Shown here in pieces: positions 3,654 through 10,487 of a DNA stretch of 10,487 bases. A model generated the notes under the pieces. It was given only the letters and a program-made list of their open reading frames with translations, searched no databases and was not told the DNA's origin. Location of the stretch: NCBI GenBank assembly GCA_005879255.1, contig VBKY01000319.1, positions 1 to 10,487 on the forward strand, read 5' to 3'. The DNA is from Deltaproteobacteria bacterium (GTDB lineage Bacteria > Desulfobacterota_B > Binatia > UBA9968). Positions within the stretch are counted from its first letter, which is position 1, and each line of letters starts with the position of its first letter. Position numbers and translations under genes: made by a program.

Positions 3654-4127
3654 CTACTTGAATGGCTTGAATTGCAATACTTTCAGTTGGAGAGGCTCGG
3701 CGGAATCATCGACGGTCCCCTCAATCGAGAACGAGCCTTCGGAGAGAATTTTAGGAGAAGCCACCAGAAGAAACTTATCTTTACTTGCCACAAAGAACCG
3801 CTTACCGCCTTCTTCATGGACACGGCCTCGGGCAATAATTCGGAACCGCACCACCTCCACTCCCGCTTTCCCCACCGCGTCGCGAATGTCCCGTGGCTGG
3901 AAACTGGCCCCCGACTTATAGGTAACCTGGAATCTCTGCTCCGAGACGCTTATGGAAATCTTGTCGACACCGTCCAGGCGTCTTAGAGCGATCTCCATGA
4001 CCGCCGCGCAAGAAGGTCAGGTAATTCCCTTTGCATCCGCCATCACCTTGCTCACCTGCGCTAATACCGGGTTACCTACGACCAGCATCAGCAACGCTGG
4101 CAACCAAATGTGTGTTCCCCGCTTCAT
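3654..4127 (-). CDS. HMA-domain (MerP-like) exported metal-binding protein, candidate selenoprotein with a UxxC motif
   Basis: Reading the UGA at 4017-4019 as selenocysteine gives a 157-residue protein. Residues 1-24 form a signal peptide ending 'VLAQ'. Residues ~31-95 form a heavy-metal-associated (ferredoxin-like) domain whose metal loop reads 'GIT-Sec37-PSC40', where the family has GMTCxxC. The UGA therefore replaces the first metal-binding Cys and the second is kept. The expected 'ALRRLDGV' helix end, paired strands and a 'DAVGKAGVEV' second helix follow. Residues ~96-157 look like a small beta-rich OB-fold-type domain, unusual for MerP. The ATG at 4127 has an AAGGG ribosome site 8 bases upstream. 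A naive ORF from the internal ATG at 3998 would lose the signal and the metal site. A SECIS-like hairpin follows the UGA. The gene lies 54 bases after the MerT-like gene, in merT-merP order. It could instead be a nonsense-mutated gene, but no other lesion is seen. Confidence 0.82.
3988..4004 (-). promoter_or_regulatory. SECIS-like hairpin downstream of the HMA-gene UGA
   Basis: On the - strand, GCGGTC (4004-3999) pairs with GATCGC (3993-3988) around the 5-base loop ATGGA (one G-U pair; a further G-U pair is possible at the base). The stem begins 12 bases after the UGA and the loop begins 18 bases after it. The 17-base hairpin with GG in its loop resembles the minimal E. coli fdhF SECIS in size, spacing and loop. 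Bacterial SECIS elements lie inside the coding region just after the UGA, as here. Folding was done by eye. Confidence 0.65.
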
Positions 4128-4130
4128 TTC

Positions 4131-4138
4131 CAAATCCC
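4131..4138 (-). promoter_or_regulatory. Ribosome binding site that decides the HMA-gene start
   Basis: On the - strand an AAAGGGAT stretch lies about 7-8 bases before the ATG at 4127. This start adds the signal peptide upstream of the UGA and supports reading through it; the internal ATG at 3998 lacks a comparable site. Confidence 0.6.
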
Positions 4139-4181
4139 TTTGCCAGCCGATGTCACTTCATAAGATCGAGAGATAAATCTC

Positions 4182-4502
4182 TTACCAGTAACGAAACCAT
4201 AGCACGACCCAGGAACCTAGGACTGCGAGATTCACAACGAGGCTCGTGCCCAGAGTCGCCTTGACTCCCATGGTGCGCAAACCAGGCAGCTGGCGCCGCA
4301 CGAGCCAGCTCTCATAGGCGAGCGATCCGAGCGCCACCGTGAGGAAAACCGGTTGCAAGCGCTGTAGCCAGAACAAGCAACCGGCGCTCAGTAATGAAAA
4401 TAGACCAAGTCCTGCCAGGACTTGAGGTAACACTCATCAACTGGGCAGCAGCAGGGCAGCAATGATGGACAAAAGTCCCGATCGTTTCGGATCCGTTTCC
4501 AT
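4182..4502 (-). CDS. MerT-like membrane metal transporter, candidate selenoprotein with tandem Sec-Sec
   Basis: Reading two consecutive UGA codons (4434-4439) as selenocysteine gives a 106-residue protein. It starts with ATG at 4502 (METDPKRSG...), and segment 1 reads 'IIAALLLPS-Sec22-Sec23-VLPQVLAGLG'. In mercuric transporter MerT the first membrane helix has a Cys-Cys pair (Cys24-Cys25) in the same setting, followed by a Pro/Leu-rich stretch and Ala-Leu-Gly. Three hydrophobic segments are visible (about 10-38, 40-66, 81-105), and 'LQRLQPVFLTVALGSLAYESW' parallels MerT's second helix. The second Cys pair in MerT's cytoplasmic loop is absent; the only Cys is Cys42. The order with the HMA gene is merT-merP. 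A perfect hairpin follows the UGAs. A naive call gives only an 83-residue fragment from a GTG at 4433. The MerT relationship rests on motif position, topology and neighbour, not on an alignment score. Confidence 0.8.
4405..4425 (-). promoter_or_regulatory. SECIS-like hairpin downstream of the tandem UGA in the MerT-like gene
   Basis: On the - strand CAAGTCCT (4424-4417) pairs perfectly with AGGACTTG (4413-4406) around the loop GGC, and a U-G pair at 4425/4405 extends it. The stem begins 8 or 9 bases after the second UGA (12 after the first, for the perfect part) and the loop begins 17 bases after the second. A GG at the loop start and this spacing match the bacterial SECIS pattern. It lies inside the coding region, where such a long perfect stem has no other obvious reason to exist. 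Confidence 0.75.
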
Positions 4503-4509
4503 TTCGAAA

Positions 4510-4539
4510 TTTATACGATCCGGCTGTTCCGACTGTCAA
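4510..4539 (-). promoter_or_regulatory. Sigma70-type promoter of the mer-like operon, probably giving a leaderless mRNA
   Basis: On the - strand TTGACA (4539-4534) and TATAAA (4515-4510) are separated by 18 bases. Only 7 bases separate the -10 box from the ATG at 4502, so transcription should begin at or within a base or two of the start codon. There is no ribosome binding site, consistent with a leaderless message. No clear MerR-type dyad is seen in the spacer. The promoter independently supports the start upstream of the tandem UGA. Confidence 0.65.
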
Positions 4540-4755: not shown

Positions 4756-6975
4756 ATGAGCCGGAGTTATCGATTGCGATGGACTTATCGGGTGATGTTT
4801 CTGACTCTAATGGCGGTGATCGCCGGATGGATCTTGGTGGCGGGGAATGTCAAACTTCCCGAGCTTGTCACCGCGGCCTTACGGCAACCCACCGGCTCTG
4901 CCGACCTAGTCTATTACGATCCATTGCCTGCAGGGACAATGGACGACGAAAAGTGCGAGTGGGTGCCTGCCAGCGCCGGCACCGTTCTCGCGGCCGCTCC
5001 GCAAGACGGAGCTCCGGCCCTTGCTGACGCGTCCGGGAAAAAACCGGTGCGCATGATCCGCGACCGCTACGCTTCTTATAGCGCCGTGGCGGTTGATCCG
5101 AGCAATAACGAAGTAGTTCTCACCGACGAAAACCTGTTCAATGTGCTGGTCTATAACCGGCTGGTCAATACGTCTGCCGCTGCCAGAACCGAGCCGAAGC
5201 GCGCCATCGGCGGACTGAAGACCAAGATCGAGTTCCAAAGCGGCGTCTATATAGACCCTAAGAACGGCGATATTTACGCCGTGAACAACGACACGGTGGA
5301 TACACTCGTGGTCTTTTCACGTCAGGCCAAAGGAGATGTGCGCCCCGATCGTGAGCTTCAAACCCCACATGGAACATTTGGCATAGCCGTGGATGAGGAG
5401 CACCAGGAGCTTTTACTTGCCGTGCAACATGATAGCGCCGTGGTAACGTTCGAAAAGACCGCCGAATCCGAAGACGCGCCCATTCGGCTTCTCCAGGGCG
5501 AACACACGCTGCTTGCGGACCCGCACGGAATCGCTTTGGATACGAAAAATGACCTGATATTCGTCACCAACCATGGCAGCGTCCATCAGGTTCGCCCGGG
5601 CGCTGTGGCCGCCAGTGGACGCAGGCGGGACCGCAATCTTCAAAAATCGAATTGGCCGCTGGGATTCAGCAATGCCATCCCTGGTTCCGGCAAGATCTTG
5701 CCTCCTTCCGTTACGGTTTATCCCCGAACCGCCAGCGGCGACGCCGCTCCGCTTCGTGTCATTCAAGGCCCCAACACTCAAATGAACTGGCCGACGGGAA
5801 TTGCCTTTGATCCGCGGCGCAACGAACTCTACGTCGCCAATGACATGGGAGATTCGATCTTGGTCTTCAATGCCTCCGCGAGCGGCGACGTGGCGCCGAT
5901 CCGAGTTCTCAAAGGTCCCAAGACTCTCATGAAAAATCCCACCGGGATCCACGTCGACACCAACAACGACGAGCTCTGGGTGGCTAACTTCGGCAACCAT
6001 ACAGCGACGGCCTATAAACTCAGCGCGGCCGGCGACACAGCGCCTTTGCGCGTCATCCGCAGCGCGCCGGCCGATCAACCGACCTTGAGCATCGGGAATC
6101 CGCACCCGGTGGCCTACGACAGCAAGCGGGAACAGCTTCTCGTACCCAACTGAGTGGTGCATCCGCAGATTGCGGCATTCGCCAGGCTGGCGGATGGAAA
6201 TGCCAAACCAGTTCGGAAAATCGAAGGACAAAAGACGCTGTTAGGGCGGACCATGCACTCCATCGCCTACGATGAAATTCATGATGAGTTCGTCGTGCCG
6301 CAGCAATTCGGCCAGGCGATACTGACTTTTCGCGGCGGCGCCGATGGTGAGGAAGTTCCGGTTCGGGTGATCCAGGGTTCACTCACCCAGCTGCGCAATC
6401 CCGACCGGCTGGCGATCGATCCGGTGCACAACGAAATTTTTGTTCCCCAGGGGAACGCGGTTCTGGTCTTCCCGCGGGAAGCAAAAGGAAACGTGGCGCC
6501 GATCCGAGTTCTAAAGGGTCCCGACACGCAGCTGGGCGCCAGCGCACTCGCCGTAGACCCCGTCCACGACTTGCTCATTGTCGGCGGCAACGTTAGAGGC
6601 AGGGGAAGCCGCCTGCTGATTTTTAACCGCACCGACGAAGGAAATATGAAACCCAAGGCGATCATCGGCGGCCCCAACAGCGGCCTCACACAGATCAGCG
6701 GACCCTTCGCGGTCTATCCACCCAAAAACGCGATCGTCGTGAGCGTCCGGGGATCGAGCAGCGAGAGCAACGAGATGTCCTCCGATGAATGCTTTGTCGG
6801 AGTGTGGAGCACCCAAGACAACGGAGATGTACCCCCGCGGTGGACCATCGGGGGACCGAAAGGCATATTGAGGATGGTGCGCGGCGTTGATCTAGACCCC
6901 AAAAACAAGAGTGTCATCGTTACAGATAAGAGGCTCAATGCTGTGTTAACATTTTACTTTCCTGAAATGTTTTGA
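4756..6975 (+). CDS. Membrane-anchored or secreted NHL/YVTN-like beta-propeller protein with an in-frame UGA (candidate selenoprotein)
   Basis: If the UGA at 6151-6153 is read, the gene encodes 739 residues. An N-terminal hydrophobic segment (about residues 14-31, after a basic start) acts as signal or anchor. The rest is about twelve repeats of 45-60 residues, with the pattern 'P.GIA.D...NELYVAN....ILVF....GD.APIRVLKG', typical of NHL/lactonase-type propeller blades; twelve would fit two six-bladed propellers. The UGA is codon 466, inside the seventh repeat ('LLVPN-UGA-VVHPQIAAF'). It splits a blade in half, so two natural separate genes are unlikely. Simple callers would report 4756-6153 and a GTG-started 6154-6975. 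Both sides are otherwise intact. A SECIS-like hairpin follows. The alternative is TGG or TGC mutated, or misread, to TGA. Ligand and role are unknown. It is divergent from the mer-like operon. Confidence 0.75.
6176..6196 (+). promoter_or_regulatory. SECIS-like hairpin downstream of the beta-propeller UGA
   Basis: CATTCGCC (6176-6183) pairs with GGCGGATG (6189-6196), with one U-G pair, around the loop AGGCT. The stem begins 22 bases and the loop 30 bases after the UGA, inside the usual range for bacterial SECIS elements but longer than in the two mer-like genes. The loop resembles the AGGUCU loop of E. coli fdhF. GC-rich repeats can form such hairpins by chance, so this counts as moderate support. 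Confidence 0.45.
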
Positions 6976-7119: not shown

Positions 7120-7794
7120 ATGCCCCATCAGAATTGTCACTCGCGAACACTTTTTCAAATCACTATGGGACTCGTTATGTTGGTGGCTGTAGCCGAGGCG
7201 CAGGCACAGCTAGGATCGCGGGAAACCAAAGAATGGATTCAAAATCTGGACCGGCCCGAAAGGATCGCCGGGCTCAAGATAGACAAGGTCTTGCCGCTGC
7301 TGAAGCTAAAGCCGGGGGACAAGGTGGCGGACATCGGCGCTGGCGCGGGCGCTTTCTCACTCCCTTTCGCCAAGGAAGTCGCGCCGTCCGGGACAGTTTA
7401 TGCGGTTGATATCGATGCGGGGCTTTTGGATTACATCGCCCAAAAAGCAAAAAAAGAGAACATAGCGAATATCCAAACGGTCCAGGGGGAATTCAGCGAC
7501 CCCAAGCTGCCGATCCATGACGTCGATCTAGCGTTTTTTCATGACGTACTTCATCACATTGAAAACCGTCAAGCTTATCTGAAGGCACTTGCCAGTTACA
7601 TAAAACCGAGCGGCCGGATCGCGCTGATCGAGATGAATCGAGATGATCCCAAGACTCCCCACCGGAACAATCCGGATATGCTCTTGAGCAAGGACGAAAT
7701 TAGAAAGTGGATGGCGGCTGCCGGCTTTTATCCAGCGGAAGAGTTCGATGTATTCGGTAACCCGAAGTGGTTTATCATTTATACGCGGCATTAA
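7120..7794 (+). CDS. Class I SAM-dependent methyltransferase with an N-terminal signal peptide
   Basis: The 224-residue product has a Rossmann-type methyltransferase fold. Motif I is 'VADIGAGAGAF' (residues 69-79, the SAM glycine loop). The acidic end of strand 2 is 'VYAVDID' (93-99), and the post-motif region is 'DVDLAFFHDVLHHI' (134-147). A strand 'GRIALIEM' (165-172) is followed by the usual C-terminal helix and hairpin. Residues 1-30 look like a signal peptide (hydrophobic core 12-25, ending 'AEAQAQ'). That is odd for an enzyme needing cytosolic SAM, although leader-bearing members of this family occur in several environmental phyla. Substrate is unknown. The gene has its own strong ribosome site and 144 bases separate it from the propeller gene, so separate transcription is possible. 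No broken motif is seen. Confidence 0.85.
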   Translation: MPHQNCHSRTLFQITMGLVMLVAVAEAQAQLGSRETKEWIQNLDRPERIAGLKIDKVLPLLKLKPGDKVADIGAGAGAFSLPFAKEVAPSGTVYAVDIDAGLLDYIAQKAKKENIANIQTVQGEFSDPKLPIHDVDLAFFHDVLHHIENRQAYLKALASYIKPSGRIALIEMNRDDPKTPHRNNPDMLLSKDEIRKWMAAAGFYPAEEFDVFGNPKWFIIYTRH

Positions 7795-9443: not shown

Positions 9444-10487
9444 TCACTCAGCGTCCCCAACGACGATGCGACCACTCGCGATTGGCGTTCCCCCCACGCC
9501 GAGGAGCGTTACGCCGCCGATCAGGGGTTCACCAAGGAGAGTCCCCTCGCAGCTTATGTGATCGGTCGGTTTGGCGTCCCGCGTACACTTTACCAATTCA
9601 TTACCAACGGTGGTCGTCACGTTAAGTAAGATATTGCTACCACTGGGCACGTGGTTGAGCTTGGCTCGGGCATTGTGGGCGGCAAAATGCACGGTCCCCC
9701 GCGTGCGGAAGTTTCCGAACGGTCGCATGGGGGCATCAGCCTCTTCCACTTCACCTTGAGCTAGGGGCGCGGGATCGTGAAGAACAAGCACCCCCGGACT
9801 ATTGGTCGCAGTGCTGTTCGGATTGGCGGGAAACTGTCTGGCTCCTACATAGACATTGTTGTGAATGGGATCGACACCTATGCCGTGTCCATTACGTCCC
9901 GAGCAATCGGCTCCTACGATCGTGGCTACGTTGTTAGGTGACGTATGCGCAGCGAATACTCCGACGACGGGAAATACCGGTGGGGTGTCCGCGGTCGAAG
10001 GGCACAGGACACCGCTATTCGTATTGTTGCTGGACGCCGTATACCAGCGGCGGAGATTGGGGTTAAAGTACAACGTATCGGTACCGGTAACACCAGGGAA
10101 GGTGTTCAGGACGGCTCCACTACTGAGATCGAGCTGAAACTGCGCGGCACTGAGGGCGCACCCCACAATAGCCGTGTTCGTTAACGGATCGATGTCGATG
10201 CCGCGGACCGCGCAACCTGCTGGCGGAGCCAACTTACCGACAATGGCCGCAGCTCCACTCTTCGTTGGGTTAATGCGCAGCACTGAATCATTCGGACCTC
10301 CGGTGGCGATGGTGCCATCGTCGGGGATCGTTTGGTAGATCATTCCATCGATCGGATTGAAGCGCGGTTGCTCGGGATTGGAAGGCAGCGGGATCTGATC
10401 GACGATCGTATTGCTGATAAGGTCAACGACCGTCAAGAAAAAAGGCGACTTGGTGTTGGCCACGTAAGCCCGGTGGTTGATCGGATC
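9444..10487 (-). CDS. Secreted YVTN-type beta-propeller protein, 5'-partial
   Basis: The frame is open to the right edge, so the N-terminus lies outside; about 347 residues are present. The sequence begins within a repeat ('DPINHRAYVANTKSPFFLTVVDL') and continues with blade-like units such as 'GIDIDPLTNTAIVGCA' and 'GIGVDPIHNNVYVGAR', typical of YVTN/lactonase-like propellers. The last ~100 residues leave the repeat pattern and look like a beta-sandwich-type C-terminal domain with two Cys ('LVKCTRDAKPTDHISCEG') that could form a disulfide. Richness in Asn, Thr, Ser and Pro fits a secreted or surface protein. A start codon at 10463 (GTG) is formally possible, but the repeat clearly continues upstream of it. 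The binding partner is unknown. It differs from the 4756-6975 propeller in repeat wording and has no in-frame stop. Confidence 0.75.
   Translation of the reverse strand, partial: DPINHRAYVANTKSPFFLTVVDLISNTIVDQIPLPSNPEQPRFNPIDGMIYQTIPDDGTIATGGPNDSVLRINPTKSGAAAIVGKLAPPAGCAVRGIDIDPLTNTAIVGCALSAAQFQLDLSSGAVLNTFPGVTGTDTLYFNPNLRRWYTASSNNTNSGVLCPSTADTPPVFPVVGVFAAHTSPNNVATIVGADCSGRNGHGIGVDPIHNNVYVGARQFPANPNSTATNSPGVLVLHDPAPLAQGEVEEADAPMRPFGNFRTRGTVHFAAHNARAKLNHVPSGSNILLNVTTTVGNELVKCTRDAKPTDHISCEGTLLGEPLIGGVTLLGVGGTPIASGRIVVGDAE

Follow-up and report, generated by a model that had tools for sequence, protein, structure and literature searches.

The window, meaning here the whole 10,487-nucleotide stretch of DNA that was analysed (contig VBKY01000319.1), contains a divergent gene cluster in which in-frame UGA codons lie within the genes for a MerT-like small membrane protein, a MerP-like protein and an NHL beta-propeller (Table 1). 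The merT and merP genes are both on the - strand, separated by 54 bases, and the propeller gene runs divergently from them on the + strand. An initial annotation, made from the letters of the sequence, had placed a mer-like transport operon at positions 3654-4539; this interval covers both merT and merP, whose order and spacing are as it described. The divergent propeller gene with its UGA is a third predicted recoding site, beyond that interval. The same annotation held the promoter to be intact, a claim not borne out by a promoter scan, which finds no promoter-like site under its rule; the arrangement TTGACA-18-TATAAA is visible by eye. Its ribosome site can be seen before merP (AAGGGA, 7 bases before the ATG) but not before merT, where no Shine-Dalgarno sequence is seen and TATAAA stands 7 bases before the ATG. 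The order TctA, aldo-keto reductase, merP, merT, propeller, methyltransferase is kept in a related locus, L001. Neither merA nor merR is present among the subset of open reading frames scanned in the window and in the neighbourhoods of seven related loci (L001-L007). Elsewhere in the window, positions 9444-10487 of the - strand hold an open-ended reading frame of 347 amino acids that has no Pfam match.

Table 1. Genes, in-frame UGA codons and candidate SECIS hairpins of the divergent cluster.
Feature	Position	Strand	Remarks
MerP-like protein: signal-like N-terminus, HMA domain, all-beta C-terminal extension	3654-4127	-	157 codons, one UGA read through; PF00403
Candidate SECIS hairpin GCGGUC-AUGGA-GAUCGC (merP)	3988-4004	-	GG 20 nt past UGA
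In-frame UGA, first Cys of CxxC (GITUPSC)	4017-4019	-	
MerT-like small membrane protein	4182-4502	-	106 codons, two UGAs read through; PF02411 21.1 bits
Candidate SECIS hairpin CAAGUCCU-GGC-AGGACUUG (merT)	4406-4424	-	8 pairs standard in 14/14 loci
Two consecutive in-frame UGAs, predicted Sec-Sec at MerT Cys-Cys site	4434-4439	-	
NHL beta-propeller, N-terminal membrane-like segment	4687-6975	+	762 codons, one UGA read through; PF01436
Cys90 codon, other conserved Cys of propeller family	4954-4956	+	
In-frame UGA, codon 489 of propeller (LLVPNUVVHPQIA)	6151-6153	+	
Candidate SECIS hairpin UUCGCCA-GGC-UGGCGGA (propeller)	6178-6194	+	GG 31 nt past UGA
Methyltransferase, signal-like N-terminus (by eye)	7120-7794	+	recurrent neighbour

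With both UGAs read through, the merT product is a protein of 106 amino acids (METDPKRSGLLSIIAALLLPSUUVLPQVLAG..., U denoting predicted selenocysteine, Sec) whose hydrophobic stretches span residues 7-47 and 82-103. It is like known MerT proteins (PF02411; NF033560, NF010314) in being small and hydrophobic and in that its UGA pair falls on the vicinal Cys pair of the first membrane segment; it differs from them in that Sec-Sec is predicted in place of Cys-Cys and in having no conserved Cys past residue 42. Profile searches bear out the proposed family assignments in part. The HMA domain of the MerP-like protein, with UxxC read as CxxC, scores 33.0 bits against PF00403 and passes the cut-off of 24.8, whereas the MerT-like protein stays below the cut-off of PF02411 (32.9 bits) and the MerP-like protein, at 32.1 bits, does not reach the 92.55 of TIGR02052. 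At E <= 1e-5, two NCBIfam MerT models match two and one, respectively, of eight members of the family; the protein of the window is not among these.

The placing of UGA at the Cys-Cys metal site of MerT holds up across genomes: TGATGA stands at the site in all 14 loci, that is, in the window and in 13 of 13 close genomic relatives, whose MerT-like proteins are 55-85% identical to that of the window. The first seven of these loci came from a contig scan, and their records are labelled Deltaproteobacteria, Acidobacteria, Terriglobia and Luteitalea; the total of 13 genomes was reached through profile searches of 395, 396, 35, 11 and 7 genomes, sets that overlap in part. In the closest relative's phylum (395 genomes), a UGA-UGA MerT was found only in that relative, alongside four weak matches without a stop, and among 35 genomes of its order the MerT profile finds that relative alone. 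Two UGA-UGA MerTs and nine weak stop-free matches were found in 396 genomes of the phylum of another genome, G003. Because at most 12 candidates per genome were scored for MerT, and at most five for the propeller, these wide phylum searches may miss members. Ordinary, weakly matching MerT-like proteins without a stop number 13, and all 7 of these whose alignments are listed have Cys-Cys at the UGA-UGA columns; the two UGAs align with this vicinal pair in the first membrane segment.

None of the best 120 of 294 MerT-like database relatives shows Cys-Cys at the site; 107 of the 120 begin at or beside the residue that follows the UGAs, 12 miss the motif used (10 of these are shorter forms that begin further in), and one crosses the site, with Trp-Trp, as translation with code 4 would give. 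The relatives of MerP follow suit, with 102 of 110 beginning just past the UGA site by the motif used and 4 of 110 crossing it, two with Trp, which fits code-4 translation, and two with Arg (P0121 and P0125; no contig named). The Arg, which may be a read error or a genuine substitution, tells against the Sec reading. Since gene callers cut most of the listed proteins at UGA, both families are hidden in the databases. A strict tandem-UGA motif has no matches in viral contigs; a loose pattern returned 30, which were set aside as their translations near the site are unlike MerT.

The read-through product of merP has 157 amino acids (MKRGTHIW...GITUPSCAAVMEIAL...), and the earlier assignment of its UGA to the first Cys of the CxxC motif is borne out by comparison with other loci. 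In 13 merP genes, the site codon is UGA in six (the window, L001, L003, L007, L030 and L047) and TGC or TGT in seven. The expected alternation between Cys and UGA in homologues is thus seen directly for MerP; close MerT relatives are UGA-UGA in 13 of 13, and Cys-Cys appears at these columns in ordinary MerTs. One UGA-UGA locus, L045, has no merP motif within 1300 bases past merT. The structure model of the MerP-like protein (mean pLDDT 87.8) consists of the HMA domain followed by five strands. The top matches of the HMA domain in the PDB are copper-binding HMA domains (copper ATPase domains and chaperones), and MerP (1osd) ranks 16th. The all-beta C-terminal extension comprises residues 93-157 and lies outside the HMA domain. 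Two catalogued selenoprotein families come near to the MerP-like protein without including it: NF041115, a UxxU metal-binding (seleno)protein, is matched at 41.1 bits (cut-off 95), whereas the motif here is UxxC, and NF045683, a MerT/CopZ fusion-like selenoprotein, at 16.0 bits (cut-off 375), whereas the genes here are separate.

The propeller gene encodes a protein that scores 52.1 bits against PF01436, above the cut-off of 20, and is 84.8% identical to that of L001; translation may in fact begin at the ATG at 4756. NHL-repeat and YncE-like propellers share the repeats with it, and differ at the site of the UGA, where the homologues have Cys: of the best 120 of 3334, 118 have Cys in this column, one has Trp and one is gapped. 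Among the genes examined, comprising the window, 20 loci from the first scan and 60 more that were chosen to include the three listed stop-free matches covering the column, the site codon is UGA in 78 of 81 and Cys in 3. One listed match outside these 81 carries TAG besides TGA. Propeller homologues are present in all 13 genomes with a UGA-UGA MerT. Several genomes contain large paralogous sets, with at least 33 matches in the genome that has most (pieces counted) and at least 20 propeller genes with a verified UGA in G841, a genome of 3.4 Mb. At E <= 1e-80 the propeller is found in 3 of 199 genomes of the G003 phylum. It may occur without the transporter, since one of these three genomes (G549, locus L158) has a UGA propeller and is absent from the MerT matches of the phylum search. 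A Cys-form propeller piece (L100, in G831) lies near the UGA-UGA merT of L045, the locus that has no merP motif nearby.

A further Cys of the propeller, Cys90, is conserved in 114 of the 114 homologues that cover its column (among the best 120) and in 22 of the 28 genomic loci that cover it, window counted, where the alignment is loose. It is possible that Cys90 is the partner of Sec489. In an AlphaFold2 model (mean pLDDT 86.6) the protein is built of beta-strands, with Sec489 between two of them and pLDDT below 50 around Cys90; its best PDB matches are WD and tandem propellers, at low TM-scores of 0.16-0.33 by query length. The UGA propellers possibly form a previously unreported selenoprotein family.

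According to the initial annotation, each UGA is followed by a hairpin with GG in its loop. Such hairpins do follow the UGAs of both merT and merP, although that of merP is not the minimum-energy fold in the window. The folding-energy z-scores of the three window stretches (-2.0, -0.7 and -1.5) are, taken alone, weak evidence. In merT, the GG begins 20 nt past the first UGA and 17 nt past the second, and the loop is GGC in 13 loci and GGU in one. One two-sided change, from A-U to C-G, occurs in L043-L045 and is probably a single event. The four central codons of the hairpin have invariant third positions across the 14 loci, and the two outer codons vary there only through the L043-L045 change (0.75 bits), compared with 0.6-2.0 bits at the third positions of most other merT codons. 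The merT hairpin also resembles an intrinsic terminator, a reading that was dropped because the T-rich tail is not conserved in L003 and L007.

The candidate SECIS of merP can be compared between Sec and Cys forms of the same gene. Its stem pairs are standard in 36 of 36 cases in the six UGA genes, versus 20 of 42 in the seven Cys genes, and two of its pairs carry two-sided changes in L007. The predicted probability of pairing is at least 0.79 in four of the six UGA genes, 0.21 in L007 and 0.1 in the window, where another fold is preferred over the hairpin given in Table 1; in six of the seven Cys genes it is near zero, and in L002 the inner four pairs are kept. G occupies only the third and fourth bases of the loop, AUGGA, a departure from the bacterial SECIS rule, and of the three candidate hairpins this is the weakest. 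Although the competing fold speaks against the merP hairpin in the window, it leaves our estimate for Sec as it was, because it alters nothing in the pairing of the six UGA genes as a set and the other two sites are independent of it.

The largest sample is that of the propeller hairpin, in which 511 of 525 pair cells are standard over 75 distinct UGA genes; when the partners are slid by 1, 2, 3 or 6 bases as a control, 18-55% are standard. Both bases have changed, with standard pairing kept, at pairs 30-42, 31-41 and 32-40, and with a non-standard outcome at pair 29-43 in three genes. In 69 of the 75 UGA genes the outer six pairs are all unbroken, versus none of the three Cys genes, and 61 of 77 UGA genes have a mean pairing probability above 0.5, versus 0 for the three Cys genes. 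The GG is a poorer guide. It stands at its usual place in 66 of the 75 UGA propellers and in all three Cys propellers, and it occurs in the loop stretch of two Cys merP genes (L005 and L006); nine UGA propellers lack it at the usual place, five of them having GG one base earlier. The GG is therefore not diagnostic of the UGA form.

The machinery for Sec insertion is found in the relatives. SelB scores over its cut-off in all 13 genomes with a UGA-UGA MerT, and also in 7 of 9 relatives without one. In the genomes of L001-L007, SelD is present in 7 of 7, the best match in each having a TGA of its own, SelA is over its cut-off in six with a fragment in the seventh, and a tRNA-Sec with a UCA anticodon is found in six. 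The closest relative, G001, has no tRNA-Sec over the cut-off; selD (partial), selB and selA lie together on one of its contigs. Rfam and tRNA scans of the window returned nothing of use. UGA also serves here as an ordinary stop, since TGA closes several genes of the window, namely those for TctB, TctA, the aldo-keto reductase and the propeller.

Taken together, the conservation of the codons, their position on Cys columns, the hairpins and the Sec machinery of the relatives make it very likely that these UGAs are recoded as Sec, to judge by comparative sequence evidence. Support is good at the MerT and MerP sites, given the conservation, the alternation of Cys and Sec in MerP, the conserved hairpins and the relatives' machinery. 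The naive chance of all UGAs falling on conserved Cys columns is 3e-7, a figure that is not leaned on here, as the case for recoding rests on conservation across genomes. Against this reading, the UGAs might be true stops that split the genes, the downstream part restarting (in merT at a GTG directly after UGA-UGA) to give short proteins, or the genes being in decay. This is what gene callers choose, with the result that products of 83 and 114 amino acids dominate the listed database matches, and TGATGAGTG would permit coupled re-initiation. True stops are nonetheless improbable: the residues before the merT UGAs are conserved though their third positions vary, UGA falls on a Cys column in all three families, the hairpins show co-variation and invariant bases at silent sites, and split propellers in 78 genes would be odd. 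Reassignment of UGA throughout the genome (to Trp, Gly or Cys), or an odd tRNA that reads UGA as Cys, is a shade less probable still. It would account for the database proteins with Trp at these columns (P0032, P0122, P0123 and P0280), as code-4 translation gives, but not for the TGA ends of the four genes named above, for the position of the in-frame UGAs at Cys columns with a hairpin after each, or for SelA, SelB, SelD and tRNA-Sec(UCA) in relatives. That the UGAs are errors of sequencing or assembly is the least probable of all: the window is a single record of unknown coverage, yet 13 other genomes carry these codons too, both in MerT and in the propeller, which refutes error for the family.

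The explanation that competes most seriously concerns function and takes Sec itself to be real. Instead of mercury transport, the cluster might serve redox, with a relay of selenols reducing or repairing thiols of the envelope, or the uptake of Cu(I). The HMA domain finds its closest PDB relatives in copper ATPase domains and chaperones, no merA or merR lies among the scanned neighbours, none of which points to a particular metal, and the two conserved Cys/Sec positions of the propeller could form a redox pair. On the other side stand the vicinal Cys-Cys in the first membrane segment, which is the MerT arrangement, and the pairing of genes, since a CxxC-HMA protein beside MerT makes up the mer transport pair. 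We regard a redox or copper role as a real possibility, if a doubtful one. The preferred reading, which we consider probable, is that the UGAs of the divergent cluster are read as Sec (Sec-Sec in MerT, and Sec in MerP and the propeller) and that the products likely serve to bind soft metal ions outside the inner membrane and to transport them through it. The cluster thus likely represents selenium-based handling of soft metals in the cell envelope, perhaps of mercury; the present evidence is compatible with Hg(II), Cu(I) and other soft metals alike.

In the mechanism proposed for soft-metal handling, Sec would be inserted at all sites, one SECIS serving both UGA codons of MerT. Sec37 and Cys40 of the HMA domain would take up the metal and pass it to Sec22-Sec23 in the first membrane segment of MerT; family resemblance makes such a relay, from HMA UxxC to MerT Sec-Sec, plausible. 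The propeller, probably exported, might capture metal or keep the selenols reduced through Sec489 and Cys90, which is the weakest step. The fuller scheme, an envelope-wide selenolate relay in which one SECIS directs two consecutive Sec and a heavily duplicated family of propeller selenoproteins captures or guards metal outside, has in our estimate an even chance of being correct. The spacing between a UGA and its SECIS is generally regarded as narrowly constrained. A pair of adjacent UGAs followed by one hairpin raises the question of whether a single SECIS can serve both codons via SelB, for which 14 natural MerT sequences are available. As a metal ligand in a transporter, Sec-Sec would be out of the ordinary.

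Parts of this system have precedents in print. The initial annotation guessed that Sec-containing relatives of mercury transport proteins had been noted before, and rightly so: a table of the Global Ocean Sampling survey (PMC2398784) lists both MerP and a putative mercuric transport protein as selenoproteins. The MerP-like protein shares with that Sec-MerP its type and a predicted Sec, a comparison made by the table entry, which gives no domain or motif. A putative mercuric transport selenoprotein of the same family as MerT (PF02411) is entered in the inventory of PMC13188914 with one Sec and the motif C/SxxU, whereas two adjacent Sec codons are found here; PMC9312934 carries the same entry. 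The table of 119 prokaryotic selenoprotein families in PMC13188914 (2026) includes no propeller and no UU motif, so that the propeller would add a fold missing from that table. The largest bacterial selenoproteome recorded in the same source has 63 genes, in a Methylomirabilota MAG. A term search of the available text of PMC12013277 gives nothing on these families, the portion of PMC4807772 at hand does not touch them, and literature searches show, among the matches listed, no report of a Sec-Sec MerT or of propeller selenoproteins. Sec-MerP and a one-Sec MerT are thus already published, and the tandem Sec-Sec and the propeller go beyond what was found in print.

The methyltransferase gene downstream of the propeller may also belong to the cluster. 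It is in the same place in L001 (100-801), and the methyltransferase of L004 (4232-4969), 52% identical, lies just upstream of merT and ends 28 bases before it.
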